Source: an uncultured Burkholderiales bacterium | Lineage (GTDB): Bacteria > Pseudomonadota > Gammaproteobacteria > Burkholderiales > Burkholderiaceae_C | Direction: 5' to 3' | DNA: 11,340 nucleotides | NCBI GenBank assembly: GCA_937897495.1 | Contig: CALCBL010000054.1 | Coordinates: 1-11,340 of the forward strand | Shown here: positions 3,256 through 10,422 of the stretch, piece by piece | Layout: each line of letters begins with the position of its first letter | Numbering within the stretch: position 1 is the stretch's first letter | Position numbers and translations under genes: made by a program | Notes under the pieces: model-generated | Told to the model about the DNA's origin: nothing | Database searches by the model: none | Seen by the model: only the letters and a program-made list of their open reading frames with translations

Positions 3256-4138
3256 AACTTGGCAGCAAACATTGCCTCACGGCATTCACTTAAGTTGCCG
3301 TGCGGCAGGGCCCAAGGGTGCGCCCGTCTTGCTGTTCTTGCACGGCTTCCCTGAAGCGGCTTTTGTGTGGGACGACCTGTTGCTGCACTTTTCGAAACCT
3401 GCAAATGGTGGCTATCGATGCGTGGCGCCGAATTTGCGCGGCTATGAAAAATCAAGTCATCCCTCCGAGGTGTCTGCCTACCGTGCTAAATTTTTGGTGC
3501 AAGACATTGCCGCGCTGATTCAAATTGAATCTGGCACATCACCCCTCAAAGCCTTGGTCGCCCACGACTGGGGCGGCGGCGTGGCTTGGAACCTTGCCAA
3601 TCAAATGCCTCAGTTGATGCACAAACTCATCATCATCAACTCGCCGCATCCTGGTACTTTTCTGCGCGATCTAAAAGACCATCCAGCGCAAATTGAGGCC
3701 AGTGCTTACATGAATTATTTTTGTGAGCCGCAAGCTGCTGCCGAACTCAGTGCCAATGAATTTGAAATGCTGTTTGCCTTCTTTGAAAAAGGCGTGAAGC
3801 CCACTTGGTTAAAGCCCGAAGTCAAAGCGCAATACAAAGCGGCTTGGTCGTGTGGCTTGCAGGGCGGCCTTAACTTCTACGCGGCATCGCCCCTCAAACC
3901 CAGCAAGCCTGGTGAGCATGTCTTGCAAAATTTGACTTTGCCTGACGAGATGTTGCGCATCACGGTGCCCACCTTGTTGCTTTGGGGCTTGCAAGATGTC
4001 GCCTTGCTGCCCAATTTGAATATTGGCTTAGACGCCTATATTCCCAAGCTCACTTATGTGCCCATTGAAGATGCCTCGCACTGGGTGGTGCACGAACACC
4101 CTGAACTTGTTCAGCGTGAAATTGCGGCTTTTTTATAG
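3248..4138 (+). CDS. Alpha/beta hydrolase with Asp nucleophile, epoxide hydrolase/haloacid dehalogenase-like
   Basis: The 296-residue product has the alpha/beta hydrolase fold of the soluble epoxide hydrolase and fluoroacetate/haloalkane dehalogenase branch. Visible are the oxyanion block HGFPE (about 32-36), the nucleophile elbow AHDWGGG with Asp107, an acid residue in LLWGLQD (Asp250) and the catalytic His278 in DASHWVVHEHPEL. Cap-domain tyrosines at about 154/157 (SAYMNYF) and 211 (LNFYAAS) are where epoxide hydrolases keep their ring-opening pair, which favours that activity over dehalogenation. The physiological substrate is unknown. In-frame ATGs lie at 3224, 3239 and 3248. I chose 3248, which overlaps the engB stop by eight bases, but 3239 is possible. 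The 3' end overlaps the convergent acyltransferase gene by 28 bp. There is no signal peptide, so it is cytoplasmic. Confidence 0.88.
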   Translation: MIETWQQTLPHGIHLSCRAAGPKGAPVLLFLHGFPEAAFVWDDLLLHFSKPANGGYRCVAPNLRGYEKSSHPSEVSAYRAKFLVQDIAALIQIESGTSPLKALVAHDWGGGVAWNLANQMPQLMHKLIIINSPHPGTFLRDLKDHPAQIEASAYMNYFCEPQAAAELSANEFEMLFAFFEKGVKPTWLKPEVKAQYKAAWSCGLQGGLNFYAASPLKPSKPGEHVLQNLTLPDEMLRITVPTLLLWGLQDVALLPNLNIGLDAYIPKLTYVPIEDASHWVVHEHPELVQREIAAFL

Positions 4139-5004
4139 ACCGATGCTTCACCCTCTGGGCGTGTTTTAAAACGCTTGTGCACCCAGTAATACTGCGATGG
4201 CGTAGCGCGAATGTGTTCGGCCAATTCAGCGTTCATTCTGAGGGTGTCGTCAAATAAATTGACTGTGGGGAAATTGTCCCAAGCCTCATGCAAAGTTATT
4301 TCATAACCTTGCGGCGTCATGCGCGTGACCAGTGTCAGAACCTGCGCACGCCCTAAACGCGCAAATCGTGACAATGAAGGGACTGTTGCCGCGGTCACAC
4401 CCATGAATGGCACAAAGAGGGATTCATCTGGCCCAAAGTCCATATCGGGTGACAGGTGCAACATCTCCCCTTGCCTTAAACCGCTCATGATTTGCTTCAC
4501 ACCTTCGTGCCGAAAATAGGGCTTCACATTGCCTGTGCGTTGACGTCCTTCATTCACCCAAGCGTCCATCACTTTGTTGTGCTGTGGCACAAAGATAAAT
4601 GCCACAGGTTTGCTGGCTTTCAAAGTGAGCGCCAAGCCACCTGCATCAAGTCCAACGAAATGGGGCGCCAAAATAATCTTAGGTGTGTCGGCCGCCAATT
4701 GAGAAAAAGCAGCAGGGGTGCCAAGCCATTTCAAGCGCGACTCAACAACCGACAAAGGGGCATGCCAGAGCCACGCTCTGTCTAGCAAGGACTGTGCAAA
4801 TTGAACGAAATGCGCGCGGGTCAGTTGTTTGATTTCTTCAATGGGTTTTTCAGGAAAGCACAGCCTCAAATTGGTCTGCACAATGTGCTTTCGATTTTTC
4901 ATCTTGAGCCACAGCAGCCAACCTAAAAAATGCCCTAGTACACGGATGCCACGCAAAGGCATGTGCGACAACAAACGCATGAGGCCCACAAACAACAGTG
5001 TCAC
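4111..5004 (-). CDS. LpxL/HtrB-family lipid A acyltransferase (HX4D type)
   Basis: A member of the LpxL/LpxM family, which adds secondary acyl chains to lipid A at the cytoplasmic face of the inner membrane. The 297-residue product has an N-terminal membrane anchor (about 16-34, RGIRVLGHFLGWLLWLKM) and the catalytic HX4D motif in APHFVGLDAGG (His115, Asp120). It also has the LSPDMDFGPDESLFVPFMG block (about 184-202) and the family's C-terminal YYWVHKRFKTRP. The start is GTG, within a GTGA overlap with the upstream acyltransferase and eight bases after an AGGAG site; the next ATG is 24 bases downstream. The last nine codons are antisense to the end of the hydrolase gene. Which chain (lauroyl, myristoyl or other) and which position it acylates cannot be read from the sequence. 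Confidence 0.9.
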   Translation of the reverse strand: MTLLFVGLMRLLSHMPLRGIRVLGHFLGWLLWLKMKNRKHIVQTNLRLCFPEKPIEEIKQLTRAHFVQFAQSLLDRAWLWHAPLSVVESRLKWLGTPAAFSQLAADTPKIILAPHFVGLDAGGLALTLKASKPVAFIFVPQHNKVMDAWVNEGRQRTGNVKPYFRHEGVKQIMSGLRQGEMLHLSPDMDFGPDESLFVPFMGVTAATVPSLSRFARLGRAQVLTLVTRMTPQGYEITLHEAWDNFPTVNLFDDTLRMNAELAEHIRATPSQYYWVHKRFKTRPEGEASVYKKAAISR

Positions 5005-5843
5005 GCGGTGGACTCCTGCCTAGGCTGCTTGTACCGGGCATAGCCCCAAAGGTACTGATCGGGGCGCGACAAAATCAAGCGCTCCATGGCCTGGTTGATT
5101 TGCAAAACCAGTGCCTCCACGTCATCCGCATCTTGGGTGCTTAGTTCACTGGCATGAATGCGATAGCCTTGCCCCCAAGGCAGGCGCTCGCCCCAAATCA
5201 AAATCAATTTGGCCCCTGTTTGCAAAGCCAATCTGGCTGCCAATGTCATGGTGTACGCAGGCTTGCCAAAGAAGGGCGTCCATTGCCCCATGCCTTGCGG
5301 CGGCACTTGATCTGGCAGCAGGCCCACCGATCTGCCAGCGCGCAGGGCTTTGATCATCTGCCTCACACCCGCCAAGGTGGTAGGCGCCGTCTCTAAGCCA
5401 GGACGCGCGCGGGAAGCTTCCATGACCTTGCCAAAACCTTCTTTGCGAGCAGGCCTAAAGAGCACGGTCAGGGGCCCATATTTTTGACTGAAGGCGGCAC
5501 ACAAAGCCTGTGCACTCACTTCAAAGCAGCCCAAATGAGGCGTTAAAAATAAAACGCCTTGGCCCGCGGCATAGGCTTTTTCAGCTTGTAAATAAGACCC
5601 CTCAGCCCATTGCACGCTGGGGCTTTTTCCCATCCACAAACGCGGCAGTTCGGTCGACATCGAACCCGCCTGCCCCACTGCGCCCACCGCCTGTGAAAAG
5701 CCTAGGCCCGCCGTTTTGACGTTGGCTAAAAAGCGCTGGCGATAGGTTTTGGACAACAGCCAAGCCAGCCAGCCAACGGCCTGCCCAAGGGCGTGCAAAG
5801 CCCACAAAGGCCAATGGGAAAAAAAACGAAACCAAAAAATCAT
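5001..5843 (-). CDS. LpxL/LpxM-like lysophospholipid/lipid A acyltransferase (HX4E type)
   Basis: A second, divergent member of the same family, 280 residues, first in a two-gene operon with the following acyltransferase. It has an N-terminal hydrophobic anchor (about 7-31), the catalytic HX4E motif in LTPHLGCFEVSA (His103, Glu108), the block GLLPDQVPPQGMGQWTPFFG (about 174-193) and a C-terminal DQYLWGYARYKQPR. It lacks the usual W-x-H-x-RFK ending of LpxL and shows YARYK instead. Together the two enzymes probably complete hexa-acylated lipid A. The start ATG (5843-5841) has no good Shine-Dalgarno in the AT-rich stretch before it. The gene is divergent from metK, and the minus-strand transcript probably starts within the metK leader region. 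Placing lipid A acyltransferases beside metK is familiar in Burkholderiales. Confidence 0.88.
   Translation of the reverse strand: MIFWFRFFSHWPLWALHALGQAVGWLAWLLSKTYRQRFLANVKTAGLGFSQAVGAVGQAGSMSTELPRLWMGKSPSVQWAEGSYLQAEKAYAAGQGVLFLTPHLGCFEVSAQALCAAFSQKYGPLTVLFRPARKEGFGKVMEASRARPGLETAPTTLAGVRQMIKALRAGRSVGLLPDQVPPQGMGQWTPFFGKPAYTMTLAARLALQTGAKLILIWGERLPWGQGYRIHASELSTQDADDVEALVLQINQAMERLILSRPDQYLWGYARYKQPRQESTA
5013..5017 (-). promoter_or_regulatory. Shine-Dalgarno AGGAG that fixes the GTG start of the second acyltransferase
   Basis: CTCCT on the plus strand reads AGGAG on the minus strand, eight bases before the GTG at 5004-5002. This supports the GTG, which overlaps the upstream TGA as GTGA, over the first in-frame ATG 24 bases later. 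Confidence 0.75.
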
Positions 5844-5854
5844 TTTATGTTTGG

Positions 5855-5860
5855 TAAACT
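5855..5860 (+). promoter_or_regulatory. Candidate -10 element for metK
   Basis: TAAACT matches TATAAT at four of six positions and would start transcription near 5866-5868, exactly where the first leader hairpin begins. No clear -35 is visible at the usual spacing, so the call is weak and rests mostly on its position. Confidence 0.3.
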
Positions 5861-5866
5861 ACGCCG

Positions 5867-5968
5867 GTCGCTGAGTTAAACAGAGCAACTTGCAGGGCGA
5901 CACACACATTCTTTCAGCATGCCTAGCATGCCCCGAATTGTGCCTTGTCTTCGGACAAATCTGCTAAA
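5867..5968 (+). promoter_or_regulatory. metK leader, SAM-II-like aptamer candidate
   Basis: A 5' stem pairs GTCGC (5867-5871) with GCGAC (5897-5901), plus a T-G pair. Its loop begins GAGTTAA (5873-5879) and ends CTTGCA (5889-5894). This resembles the SAM-II riboswitch plan of a first stem, a GAUUU-like loop start and UUGCA just before the closing strand. GCTAAA, a conserved SAM-II tail word, occurs at 5963-5968 after CAAAT, which can pair with ACTTG of the loop at four of five positions. Between these parts is an insert with two hairpins: GCATGC/GCATGC (5917-5922, 5926-5931) and TTGTC-TTCG-GACAA (5945-5958), the latter with a stable UUCG tetraloop. The large insert and the absent RUAAA-like segment after the stem are unlike standard SAM-II. 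The alignment was made from memory and by eye. Confidence 0.4.
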
Positions 5969-5974
5969 GCGTTC

Positions 5975-6031
5975 GCCGAGGCCCAAAGCTCCTGGCAGCG
6001 CAGATCAACATGCATGCCAAACTTACAGGAG
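5975..6031 (+). promoter_or_regulatory. Putative anti-SD / anti-anti-SD switch before metK
   Basis: CTCCTG (5989-5994) is perfectly complementary to CAGGAG (6026-6031), which contains the metK Shine-Dalgarno AGGAG (6027-6031, seven bases before the ATG). A competing stem, GCC-AGG (5975-5977, 5979-5981) with CCTGGC (5991-5996) and a single bulged G, uses the same CCTG bases and would free the Shine-Dalgarno. The two structures exclude each other, as in a translational riboswitch or attenuator. A third GCATGC copy at 6012-6017 could also pair with the copies further upstream. Confidence 0.45.
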
Positions 6032-6038
6032 ACTCCTC

Positions 6039-7223
6039 ATGGCGAATGACTATCTTTTCACTTCAGAATCCGTGTCCGAAGGCCACCCCGACAAGGTTGC
6101 CGATCAAATCTCAGACGCCATTCTCGACGCTATTTTTGAACAAGACCCCCGCAGCCGCGTGGCCGCCGAAACGCTGACCAACACCGGTTTGGTAGTTTTG
6201 GCCGGTGAAATCACCACCAACGCCCACGTCGACTACATCCAGGTGGCCCGCGACACCATCAAGCGCATTGGCTACGACAACACCGAGTACGGCATCGACT
6301 ACAAAGGCTGCGCGGTCATGGTTTGCTACGACAAGCAGTCCAATGACATTGCCCAAGGTGTGAACCATGCCTCCGACGACCACCTGAACACCGGTGCCGG
6401 CGACCAAGGTTTGATGTTTGGTTACGCTTGCAGCGAAACCCCCGATCTCATGCCTGCGCCCATTTATTACGCGCACCGTTTGGTCGAGCGTCAAGCCCAG
6501 TTGCGCAAAGACGGCCGCTTGCCTTTCTTGCGCCCCGATGCCAAAAGCCAAGTGACCATGCGCTACGTAGACGGCAAGCCGCACAGCATCGACACCGTGG
6601 TGTTGTCCACTCAGCACAGCCCAGATCAAAGCGAGTCGGCCACCAAAATGAAGGCCAGCTTCAACGAAGCCATCATTGAAGAAATCATCAAGCCTGTGCT
6701 GCCCAAAGAGTGGCTGCAAGACACCAAGTACCTGATCAACCCCACAGGTCGCTTTGTCATTGGCGGTCCTCAGGGCGATTGCGGCCTGACCGGTCGCAAG
6801 ATCATTGTGGACACCTACGGCGGTGCTTGCCCTCACGGCGGCGGCGCCTTCTCAGGCAAAGATCCTTCAAAGGTTGACCGTTCAGCTGCTTATGCAGCGC
6901 GCTATGTGGCCAAGAACATTGTGGCTGCTGGTCTTGCAACCAAGTGCCAAATTCAAGTGGCCTACGCCATTGGTGTGGCACGCCCCATGAACATCACGAT
7001 CAACACTGAAGGCACTGGCGTGATCTCTGATGACCAGATTGCCGCTTTGGTGAACGAGCACTTTGATTTGCGCCCTAAGGGCATCATTCAAATGCTCGAC
7101 CTCTTGCGCCCCATCTACACCAAGACAGCGGCATATGGCCACTTTGGCCGCGACGAGCCCGACTTCACATGGGAGCGCACCAACATGGCCGCCACACTGC
7201 GTGCGGCCGCTGGCTTGAAGTGA
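6039..7223 (+). CDS. metK: MetK, S-adenosylmethionine synthetase
   Basis: MetK condenses ATP and methionine to S-adenosylmethionine, the cell's main methyl donor, with release of phosphate and pyrophosphate; it is a cytoplasmic tetramer. From the ATG at 6039 the product is 394 residues, normal for the family, and begins [19 protein letters not shown] with the methionine/ATP-binding SEGHPDK at about 13-19. The two family signatures are present: [12 protein letters not shown] (about 119-130) and [16 protein letters not shown] (about 267-282). The frame stays open 40 codons further upstream to an ATG at 5919, but that start has no Shine-Dalgarno and lies in the structured leader. The 6039 start has AGGAG seven bases before it. 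The gene is divergent from the acyltransferase pair and abuts the convergent FAH gene with no spacer. Confidence 0.98.
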
Positions 7224-8177: not shown

Positions 8178-8278
8178 TGATAGATACCCCGATGTGACAT
8201 AGGTTCATGCAGAAGATGGACTGCGGTGTTAGAGTCTGTTGGAAAGCTAAAGCGCCCCAAAACAATGTAGGAGACCTC

Positions 8279-9307
8279 ATGAATTTCTTTCAATCGATGC
8301 GTCCATCAAAAACAGCTCGCCAGTATTTTCTGGGTACAGCCAGTGTTCTTGCCAGCAGTTTGCTTCTGAACATGGCCGGACAAGTTTCTGCCTCGGCGCA
8401 AGCTGCCCCCTACCCGACCAAATCCATCACCATGATCGTGCCGTTCCCACCCGGTGGCTTAGCGGACATTGTGGCTCGCCCCGTGGCAGAAGCCATGAGC
8501 CGTGAACTGGGTCAGCCCGTGATCATTGAAAACAAAGGCGGTGCAGGCGGCGGCATTGGCATGGGTGTGGCTGCGCGCTCCAAACCCGATGGCTATACCG
8601 TTCTCTTGGCCTTGTCTTCATTGACCGTCATCCCTGAAGCCGATGCCTTGTTAGGCCGCAACCCCATGTTCTTGCTGAACGAGCTGCGCCCCATTGCGCG
8701 TTACACCGCAGACCCAACGGTGCTGGCCGTGCGCGCTGACGCGCCTTGGAAGACTGTTAAAGAGTTTGTTGAAGATGCGCGCAAACGTCCTGGTGCGATC
8801 AACTATGGCTCGTCGGGTAACTACGGCACCATGCACGTTCCCATGGAAATTTTGGCGCAAACCGCTGGCATCAAGTTGACCCACATTCCGTTCACGGGTG
8901 CAGGCCCTGCCGTGGTGGCCATGTTGGGCGGTCAAATTGACGCATTGTCCACAGGCCCCGCTACTGTTTTGCAGCACGTTAAAGCCGGCAAAATTCGTGT
9001 GCTGGGCCATTGGGGCAACGGCGCATTGGCCTCCATGCCCGAGGTCAGCAGTCTGAAAGATTTGGGCTTCAATGCCGAGTACGCGCAGTGGTCTGGCTTG
9101 TTCATTCCAAGCGGTACACCCGAGCCTATTGCGCAGCGATTGCGTGCTGCCGCCAAAATGGCCGCTCAAGATGCCAAAGCCCGCGAAGTGATTCAAAACA
9201 CCGGCAGTCCTGTGCAATATTTGGACAGCCCCGATTTTGAAAAATATGTTCAGGCCGATGCCAAACGCATGACCGACGTGGTCAAGAAAATTGGCAAAGT
9301 GGAATAA
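8279..9307 (+). CDS. Bug/TctC-family tripartite tricarboxylate transporter solute-binding protein (first copy)
   Basis: An exported solute receptor of the Bug (TctC-like) family, which binds carboxylates or related small molecules in the periplasm and normally delivers them to a TctAB permease. The 342-residue precursor has a signal peptide with a hydrophobic core (about 18-34, FLGTASVLASSLLLNMA) and likely cleavage near ASAQA|APYP (about 42). The mature start YPTKSITMIVPFPPGG is the family hallmark, followed by NKGGAGGGIGMG, DGYTVLL, INYGSSGNYGTMH and FTGAGPAVVAMLGGQIDA. The start is the ATG at 8279 with TAGGAG at 8268-8273; the upstream ATG at 8207 lacks such a site. The ligand cannot be predicted, as this family is large and mostly orphan. 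It is followed by a second copy 68 bases later. Confidence 0.93.
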   Translation: MNFFQSMRPSKTARQYFLGTASVLASSLLLNMAGQVSASAQAAPYPTKSITMIVPFPPGGLADIVARPVAEAMSRELGQPVIIENKGGAGGGIGMGVAARSKPDGYTVLLALSSLTVIPEADALLGRNPMFLLNELRPIARYTADPTVLAVRADAPWKTVKEFVEDARKRPGAINYGSSGNYGTMHVPMEILAQTAGIKLTHIPFTGAGPAVVAMLGGQIDALSTGPATVLQHVKAGKIRVLGHWGNGALASMPEVSSLKDLGFNAEYAQWSGLFIPSGTPEPIAQRLRAAAKMAAQDAKAREVIQNTGSPVQYLDSPDFEKYVQADAKRMTDVVKKIGKVE

Positions 9308-9312
9308 ATTCA

Positions 9313-9327
9313 GATCAATCTTTGATC
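9313..9327 (+). other. Small hairpin between the two Bug genes
   Basis: GATCAA (9313-9318) and TTGATC (9322-9327) form a 6-bp stem with a TCT loop, six bases after the first Bug stop codon. No T-run follows directly, so it is not a standard terminator. It may stabilise the upstream message or partly separate expression of the two genes. Confidence 0.35.
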
Positions 9328-9375
9328 AAACTCATTAGCTTTTAAGAACCACATTCAGTTATCACGGAGACCTAC

Positions 9376-10422
9376 ATGAACTCATTGCACAAATCAACTT
9401 CTAGCCAAGTAATCGCTGGCACTTTACAAAAGCCCTCTGCTAAGCGCCGTCATATGGGCCTCGCATTGGCCAGCTTTTTGTTGATGGGCACAGGCATCTT
9501 TTTGTCGCAGCAAGCCCACGCGCAAAACTACCCCACGCGCCCTGTCAAAATCATTGTGCCTTTTGCCACAGGCGGCCCTGCCGACAACTATGCGCGGTTC
9601 ATGGCTCAGCGTCTGCAAGACAGCTTGGGTCAAACTTTTGTGGTCGACAACAAGCCTGGCGCAGGCTCTGTCATTGGCACCGACTTGGCGGCCAAAGCTG
9701 CTCCCGATGGTTACACCTTGCTGCTCATGTCGAACACGCAAACCGTGAACGAAACCCTCATCCCCAACAAGCCTTATGGCTTGATGAAAGACTTTGTGGG
9801 CGTCGCCCCCATCAACTATTCTGATTTGGTGTTGGTGGTCAACCCCACCAAAGGCTTGAACACTTTGGCCGATGTCATTCGTGTCGCCAAAGCCCAGCCT
9901 GGCAAGTTGAACTATGCATCTTCCGGTCCTGGCACGCCCTATCACATGGCTGGCGAATTGTTCAAAAGCATGGCCAAGATTGACATGGTGCACGTGCCCT
10001 ACAAAGGCAGCTCTGGCGCACGCACCGATGTGCTGGGCGGTCAAGTCGACATGATGTTTGATGCGGTCACCACCATGACCGAACAAGTCAAGGCTGGCAA
10101 AGTCAAAGCTGTGGGCGCCACCGGCAAAGTGCGCTCCGATGTGTTGCCCGATGTGCCCACCCTGAACGAAGCGGGCGTACCAGGCTACGAAGCCACCATT
10201 TGGCTTGGCATCATGGCGCCCAAGGGCACGCCCAAAGCCGTTGTCGACAAGCTCAATGAAGCCGTTTCTAAAATTTCTTCACAAACCGACATCAAGCAAC
10301 AGTGGGCCAAGCAAGGCGCGGCACCTTTGGTCATGAACCCTGTGGCATTTGACAAATATTTGCAAGACGACATTGCCAAATGGGCCGGTGTGATCAAGTC
10401 AGCCAACATCAAACTGGATTAA
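9376..10422 (+). CDS. Bug/TctC-family tripartite tricarboxylate transporter solute-binding protein (second copy)
   Basis: A 348-residue paralogue of the preceding receptor. The signal peptide is long, with a polar 25-residue n-region ending in AKRRHM, a hydrophobic core (about 28-44) and cleavage near QAHA|QNYP (about 49). The mature protein opens NYPTRPVKIIVPFATGGPADN and contains NKPGAGSVIGTD, DGYTLLLMSN, LNYASSGPGTPYHMAGELF and VPYKGSSGARTDVLGGQVDMMFD, all typical of Bug proteins. The start ATG has GGAG at 9366-9369. An internal ATG (residue 27, at 9454) would leave a shorter signal, but it has no ribosome-binding site. The two copies differ clearly in sequence, so they probably bind different ligands. 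The ModA-like gene follows five bases after the stop. Confidence 0.93.
   Translation: MNSLHKSTSSQVIAGTLQKPSAKRRHMGLALASFLLMGTGIFLSQQAHAQNYPTRPVKIIVPFATGGPADNYARFMAQRLQDSLGQTFVVDNKPGAGSVIGTDLAAKAAPDGYTLLLMSNTQTVNETLIPNKPYGLMKDFVGVAPINYSDLVLVVNPTKGLNTLADVIRVAKAQPGKLNYASSGPGTPYHMAGELFKSMAKIDMVHVPYKGSSGARTDVLGGQVDMMFDAVTTMTEQVKAGKVKAVGATGKVRSDVLPDVPTLNEAGVPGYEATIWLGIMAPKGTPKAVVDKLNEAVSKISSQTDIKQQWAKQGAAPLVMNPVAFDKYLQDDIAKWAGVIKSANIKLD

Follow-up and report, generated by a model that had tools for sequence, protein, structure and literature searches.

A variant of the SAM-II riboswitch is predicted in the metK leaders of many Burkholderiales

The window analysed here, a stretch of 11,340 nucleotides, is one contig of a draft Burkholderiales assembly that comprises 682 contigs. 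A gap of 195 nt separates metK from a divergent upstream gene, and the leader stem, its conserved words and its hairpins all lie inside this gap. The start of metK was set by homology, as relatives align from residue 1, and the first metK codons take part in the leader fold. The genes and the ribosome site are:

5001-5843, minus strand: lipid A acyltransferase gene, divergent from metK (Pfam)
6027-6031, plus strand: Shine-Dalgarno sequence AGGAG, 7 nt before the start codon (from the sequence)
6039-7223, plus strand: metK, S-adenosylmethionine synthetase (Pfam PF00438, PF02772, PF02773)

Two lipid A acyltransferase genes adjoin on the minus strand (4111-5843) and two TctC-type receptor genes on the plus strand (8207-10422); by Pfam, each may be a duplicated pair.

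We located a SAM-II-type pseudoknot in the metK leader at positions 5867-5974, composed of the following elements:

5867-5872, plus strand: 5' strand of P1, GUCGCU, pairing with 5896-5901 (fold and covariation in 34 leaders)
5873-5879, plus strand: third strand in loop L1, GAGUUAA (alignment; pocket numbering from PMC3764141)
5883-5886, plus strand: 5' strand of P2a, GAGC, pairing with 5971-5974 (GAAC or GAC in relatives)
5890-5895, plus strand: triplex U20 and U21 and the 5' strand of pseudoknot P2, UUGCAG, of which GCAG (5892-5895) is the P2 part
5896-5901, plus strand: 3' strand of P1, GGCGAC (fold and covariation in 34 leaders)
5902-5960, plus strand: L3 insert with P3a and P3b (energy folds)
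5961-5968, plus strand: 3' strand of P2, CUGC (5961-5964), followed by U44 A45 A46 A47 (5965-5968)
5971-5974, plus strand: 3' strand of P2a, GUUC, also the opening part of the anti-start strand

In the window, P1 has six base pairs including one U-G, P2a contains one G-U, and P2 joins GCAG at 5892-5895 to CUGC at 5961-5964 with four of four pairs formed. Within the insert, P3a comprises 5903-5911/5935-5942 with an inner hairpin (5917-5922/5926-5931), and P3b comprises 5945-5949/5954-5958 with a UUCG loop. The original prediction had described the stem at 5867-5872/5896-5901, a loop GAGTTAA...CTTGCA, the word GCTAAA (5963-5968) and two hairpins between stem and word, one with a UUCG loop (5945-5958), and all of these were found in place. 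The pseudoknot it proposed, ACTTG with CAAAT, was wrong; we rejected this pairing because GCAG/CUGC pairs fully in the window and covaries elsewhere. Energy folding of 5867-5966 alone was unremarkable (z -1.14; 26 of 200 shuffles folded equally well or better) and plain folding of 5864-6053 gave z -1.87, indicating that the pseudoknot would not have been revealed by folding alone.

We then compared the leaders of close relatives, taken as the best 80 of at least 580 metK-protein matches, from Comamonadaceae and other Burkholderiales. The motif preceded metK in 78 of these best 80 loci, with P1, GAGTT, TTGC and GCTAAAGCG in order. In the two exceptions (L045 and L051), contig ends leave only about 90-105 nt before metK, and the 3' part is visible. 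Judged by the letters, the same words in the same order before metK are far beyond chance. A typical leader without an insert reads GUCGC-C-GAGUUA-nnGAACnAC-UUGC-AG-GGCGAC-GUUAAACA..CU-GCUAAAGCGUUCGCC, and in some relatives inspection by eye suggests a putative promoter directly upstream of P1.

To measure covariation, we used an alignment, A1, of 34 insert-free leaders drawn from 49 distinct short-linker sequences (P1, columns 2-7/31-36; P2a, 18-21/61-64; two triplex U-A pairs; P2, 27-30/51-54). Its rows were picked by the pattern GAGTT, TTGC, GCTAAAGCG, and those letters are invariant by choice. The results showed that 97.2% of 542 helix cells were paired, versus 35-43% with partners slid, and that both sides had changed in 53 cells versus 15.5 in shuffles. 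The picking pattern dictates four of the 16 pairs, namely both triplex pairs and the two inner P2 pairs, which are hence uninformative; P1, P2a and the two outer P2 pairs carry the weight of the covariation. P1 was paired in 97.1% of cells with three pairs changed on both sides, P2 in 97.8% with two, and P2a in 95.5% with two of its four. The outer P2 pairs vary yet pair (AU 19, GC 10 and GU 4 in one; GC 28 and AU 4 in the other), and the second P2a pair moves from A-U (23 leaders) to G-C (11 leaders). On a quick tree of 96 metK genes with open branches, of which 93 rows were readable (all but L045, L051 and L218), at least 20 changes fell on the outer P2 letters, with 13 counted among 79 close leaders alone, and pairing was complete in 90 of the 93 leaders. 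The shuffle statistics, for the helices as for the start-region complementarity below, ignore kinship; the tree counts allow for it in part. These findings indicate that the pseudoknot of the window is GCAG 5892-5895 with CUGC 5961-5964. Related metK leaders both conserve the elements and covary in them, which is the outcome in favour of the original prediction.

The L3 insert, 59 nt long in the window, is missing from about half of the close relatives. Among 79 readable close leaders, the window included, 43 had a short linker, with P1 and the pseudoknot strand only about 10 letters apart, and 36 had an insert of more than 20 letters. The long or short state switched at least 16 times on the 96-gene tree, with 13 switches counted among the 79 close leaders alone.

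According to PMC3764141, U10-U12, U20, U21, G22, C23, G42, C43, U44 and A45-A47 are completely conserved in SAM-II. The window keeps 12 of these 13 pocket nucleotides, with U5876 and U5877 as triplex U11 and U12; the exception is position 10, where G5875 stands in place of U. The same 12 were also kept in the pattern-fitting loci (78 of the best 80 of at least 580). The original prediction was right that one loop U is a G, and a G there marks most metK copies: in 39 metK leaders sampled across the order, position 10 was G in 32 (27 by script, 5 by eye), U in 6 (5 by script, 1 by eye) and unreadable in 1. It was U in 19 of 20 metX/metZ-type copies, a set in which 5 came from the Rfam model, which favours U10, and 3 (L153, L164 and L177) are only 34-36% like metZ. 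We found no literature on the contacts of U10. Instead of the GAGTT type, one metK gene (L283, genome G106) has upstream of it a canonical SAM-II with GATTTG, accompanied by a terminator-like hairpin.

Rfam 15 gave no match in the window at gathering, and its SAM/SAH and SAH riboswitch models did not match there; at E<=10, only two unrelated families matched positions 5800-6060. Of the SAM-II and SAM-V models, with which the original prediction had suggested a scan, only SAM-II gave matches, and these were below threshold and in relatives. SAM_alpha (RF00521, gathering cut-off 36 bits) matched below threshold at the right place of the metK leader in four of nine related loci scanned (19.9-22.4 bits), with no match in the other five at E<=10. 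SAM-V (RF01826) and SAM-II long loops (RF01726) matched neither the window nor the nine relatives at E<=10, and neither matched the window at gathering.

We next used two covariance models of our own. R1 was built from metK leaders, with the window outside its training; its match to the window is split by the insert into one part of 38.1 bits (E 1.4e-9) and another of 21.1 bits (E 6e-5). R1 also detected copies in genomes from other classes of the phylum and, in other Burkholderiales, copies upstream of or close to metX and metZ. Of 19 R1-found loci scanned, two passed the SAM_alpha cut-off (L164 and L170, 39.1 bits). R2 was built from 16 SAM-II copies, none preceding metK (for two, L178 and L179, no met gene was identified); at E<=0.01 it gave a correctly placed match in 43 of 81 metK sources, and the 330,539 bases yielded a single match elsewhere. 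It did not recognise the window (13.7 bits, E 0.27), as expected because of the insert. SAM_alpha itself matched eight of nine metX/metZ-type loci at 24.5-39.1 bits (L164-L166, L168, L170, L171 and L173-L175), and L175 gave no match at E<=1. The original prediction had left the choice among a variant SAM-II, a new SAM-binding class and an unrelated leader. The covarying P1, P2 and P2a, the 12 of 13 pocket nucleotides, and the models that link metK leaders and metX/metZ SAM-II copies in both directions favour the first, and we regard it as almost certain that the metK leader RNA is a SAM-II riboswitch variant.

A possible second SAM-II copy in the window's genome (RF00521, G000:C27:9441-9526, 26.2 bits) was rejected, as it lies within a dnaK-like gene (by eye); that genome had no other RF00521 match. 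This indicates that matches near 26 bits and E 1e-3 in genome scans include false ones. In L169, L171 and L179, the Burkholderia sRNA candidate Bp2_287 (RF02424) gave sub-threshold matches on the strand opposite to the SAM-II motif, and that family may be a misread SAM-II-type riboswitch.

At E<=0.01, and counting copies of every kind, R1 had a match in 292 of 399 Burkholderiales genomes. SAM_alpha matched 92 of 200 at E<=0.01, above its cut-off in 36, and none of 14 control genomes. An even draw had given 139 genomes with metK, and we then sampled the metK leaders of 130 of them. At E<=0.1, R1 found the element in 39 of the 130, the window being one of them, and had no match in the other 91. 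Among the 30 most similar metK genes, a set that counts the window's own gene, 23 were preceded by the element, as were 16 of the remaining 100. These results demonstrated that the element is common in the window's family and several others, and not universal in the order. Outside Burkholderiales, in one family of the class (f55), the motif stood before an ORF of about 100 aa without a Pfam match (L149 and L154).

SAM-II copies were also seen before or near metZ-like and metX genes (L164-L168, L170, L171 and L173-L175), several with visible terminators. In several Burkholderiales families, SAM-II-like copies form tandem arrays (L160-L163, L181-L184, L186 and L188), in which copy 1 is followed by an apparent intrinsic terminator and copy 2 is not, and the position-10 region reads GAGTT, GATTT or a variant. 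These arrays precede an ORF of about 95-113 aa (MYDC.../MFDC...; three tested, without a Pfam match), followed by a MATE-like transporter ORF (PF01554 in one, the rest by eye); a transporter under double SAM-type control would be unusual. Further arrays were noted in L180, L185 and L187; what follows them is a 154-aa ORF (150 residues tested, no Pfam match), small ORFs plus an ORF that by eye resembles the HD type, with a divergent second metK further downstream, or a start that looks metZ-like by eye. We do not present tandem SAM-II arrays as new, because 44 tandems, some with mixed platforms, have already been reported (PMC9481103).

Downstream of the aptamer, the leader contains three further strands:

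5970-5981, plus strand: anti-start strand (minimum-energy fold: 5970-5977 with 6041-6048, 5978-5981 with 6035-6038)
5989-5993, plus strand: anti-Shine-Dalgarno CUCCU (minimum-energy fold: pairs with 6027-6031)
5994-6001, plus strand: proposed antisequestor GGCAGCGC (GGCAACGC in many relatives), the alternative partner of 5970-5977

The anti-start duplex of the window had an energy of -22.6 versus -11.6 in shuffles (z -4.3). Across 101 leaders, a set in which L226 and L222 were unplaced and from which 16 R1 matches from less similar metK genes were left out, the 24 nt after GCUAAA were complementary to the segment of the ribosome site and start (mean z -3.3), and 76 leaders beat at least 59 of 60 shuffles. 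The order-level rows had been gathered by DNA search with the window's leader. Complementarity was weak or absent in the close leaders L019, L052, L056, L068, L071 and L074 and in 12 deeper ones (z 0.3 to -1.4; L206-L208, L213-L215, L217, L218, L220, L221, L224 and L227). In many Comamonadaceae-type leaders, CGUUCGCCA pairs with AUGGCGAACG across the start codon, and in Undibacterium leaders the start-region pairing is GUCGCAGG with CCUGCGAU. Where the leader contains GUUCGC, 57 of 61 MAN-type starts use GCG AAC as codons, versus 0 of 9 where it does not (109 of 211 leaders parsed, 70 MAN-type starts counted, the window twice, as itself and as L200). We also folded the leaders as they would be before the ribosome site is made. 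GCGUU then had a mean pairing probability of 0.92 versus 0.68 when shuffled (81 leaders), with AACGC as its partner in 61 of the 81; the window's own antisequestor (AGCGC) did no better than shuffles (0.70 versus 0.72).

The downstream GUUCGCC therefore has three possible partners, namely the aptamer loop, GGCAACGC and the metK start region, and this rivalry suggests translational control. We consider it likely that the element is a riboswitch of the SAM-II type, with SAM as its ligand, and that it acts as an OFF switch on metK translation. When SAM is scarce, the aptamer pseudoknot would be loose, and GCGUUCGCC after GCUAAA would pair, once made, with GGCAACGC slightly downstream. This pairing would confine the anti-Shine-Dalgarno CUCC to a loop, so that nothing would cover the start codon and ribosome site as they emerge, and metK would be made. 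When SAM is plentiful, it would bind in the P2 triplex, and P2 and P2a (loop GARC with GUUC) would lock. The antisequestor could then not form, CUCC would pair with the Shine-Dalgarno GGAG, the remaining strand (GCC and beyond) would pair with the start codon region, and metK translation would stop. The control would presumably be co-transcriptional rather than at equilibrium. Equilibrium folding buried the ribosome site in both modelled states, and the OFF switch was not seen there.

A more specific proposal, which we advance tentatively, is that a metK-dedicated subclass of SAM-II exists in part of the Burkholderiales, with a pocket retuned by U10 to G, L3 hairpins gained and lost repeatedly, and a three-partner switch strand whose OFF partner lies in the coding sequence. 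If so, the first metK codons (GCG AAC) would be held by the riboswitch, and the U10-to-G pocket would have an affinity or selectivity suited to a SAM synthetase gene.

It is unlikely that the SAM-II-like aptamer instead turns metK ON, P2a formation withdrawing GUUC from the start region. GUUCGCC is indeed paired to the start region in minimum-energy folds, and leaving the P2a strand off slightly raised access to the ribosome site (mean unpaired 0.13 free versus 0.15; 17 leaders moved up, against the OFF prediction, and 4 down, with it, p 0.002). However, this change is very small and leaves the anti-Shine-Dalgarno helix in place, SAM activating SAM synthetase would be positive feedback, and SAM-II and SAM-V are described as OFF switches (PMC1273637, PMC6061858). 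One SAM-II also stabilises its mRNA (PMC9373788).

A shifted ligand within the same fold, with U10 to G letting the pocket sense SAH, SAM and SAH, or another SAM-cycle compound, is quite improbable. The difference at position 10 between metK leaders (G in 32 of 39) and metX/metZ-type copies (U in 19 of 20) would fit it, and riboswitch variants with new ligands exist, such as a spermidine variant (PMC10853860). In contrast, the sulfonium-facing uracils U11 and U21 are kept, together with U44, A47 and G22, and G and U alternate at position 10 both among metK leaders and in the second copies of otherwise alike tandem arrays, an alternation that speaks for a single ligand. Finally, it is highly improbable that the SAM-II words are coincidental and that the structured leader instead binds a protein or sRNA or attenuates translation passively: a strong start-region helix does exist apart from the aptamer, but P1, P2, P2a and 12 of 13 pocket nucleotides with covariation are unlikely by coincidence, and a model of metX/metZ-type SAM-II cross-recognises the metK leaders.

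With a SAM-sensing OFF switch as the preferred reading, SAM would probably shut off its own production at metK through a leader sensor. SAM-II was first described in alpha-proteobacteria, with few cases in other lineages (PMC1273637), and a 2007 paper mentioned cases in beta-proteobacteria that carry terminators (PMC2258182). The text of Leyn et al. 2014 (PMC4239095) gives SAM_alpha only in Rhizobiales and Rhodobacterales and describes beta-proteobacterial metK as not regulated by known regulators. For metK, the element would close this gap in Comamonadaceae and in several other families of the order, and it would tie the metK and metX/metZ leaders of Burkholderiales to one RNA family. A search of the main texts of open-licence papers found no description of SAM-II before beta-proteobacterial metK, and none pairing the SAM_alpha name with betaproteobacteria; an earlier listing is possible. 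Position 10, the inserts and the cut-off are suggested reasons why automatic annotation misses the element. The natural series of L3 inserts and the U/G swaps at position 10 offer material for probing the SAM-II pocket.

Among known systems, SAM-II long loops (RF01726), reported from Bacteroidetes and marine sources (PMC2864571), is, judged by its name, a SAM-II variant with enlarged loops, but it matched neither the window nor the nine relatives. SAM-V (RF01826) shares the pseudoknot-triplex pocket and translational control and has a helix P3 that is missing from SAM-II (PMC6061858), and the window's leader has P3 hairpins in its insert; however, SAM-V gave no Rfam match here, and its reported sources are marine alpha-proteobacteria and Bacteroidetes. 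Related to the known tandem SAM-II and SAM-II/SAM-V arrays (PMC9481103, PMC11508383) are tandem copies that occur in Burkholderiales, whereas the window has a single copy; translational and tandem SAM-II were already known (PMC9373788, PMC9481103, PMC6061858). Leyn et al. 2014 (PMC4239095) reported a likewise beta-proteobacterial element, metXZ, which has a pseudoknot, terminators and six conserved regions in its alignment; the paper's text describes it for metX and metZ leaders, not metK. Judged from that text, the metX/metZ copies L165-L168, L171 and L173-L175, which look like ordinary SAM-II, are most probably this element.

The closest likeness is to SAM-II itself (RF00521). In SAM-II, stem P1 and pseudoknot P2 are supported by covariation (PMC1273637) and the short helix P2a joins L1 and the 3' tail (PMC6061858). 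The metK leaders share P1, P2, P2a, the triplex of U11/U12 with U20/U21, G22 C23 with G42 C43, U44 A45 A46 A47 and a location before methionine or SAM genes, and some insert-free metK relatives share the UUAAACA linker (alignment). They differ in that most metK copies have G for U10 and GAGUUA for GAUUUG, that L3 carries a hairpin insert of variable length, and that the score lies below the gathering cut-off. The element is not filed under RF00521 because of that cut-off and the missing U10; it is almost certainly a variant, one that would work like the SAM-II of RF00521, with metK as its target and a predicted translational platform that takes in the first codons.
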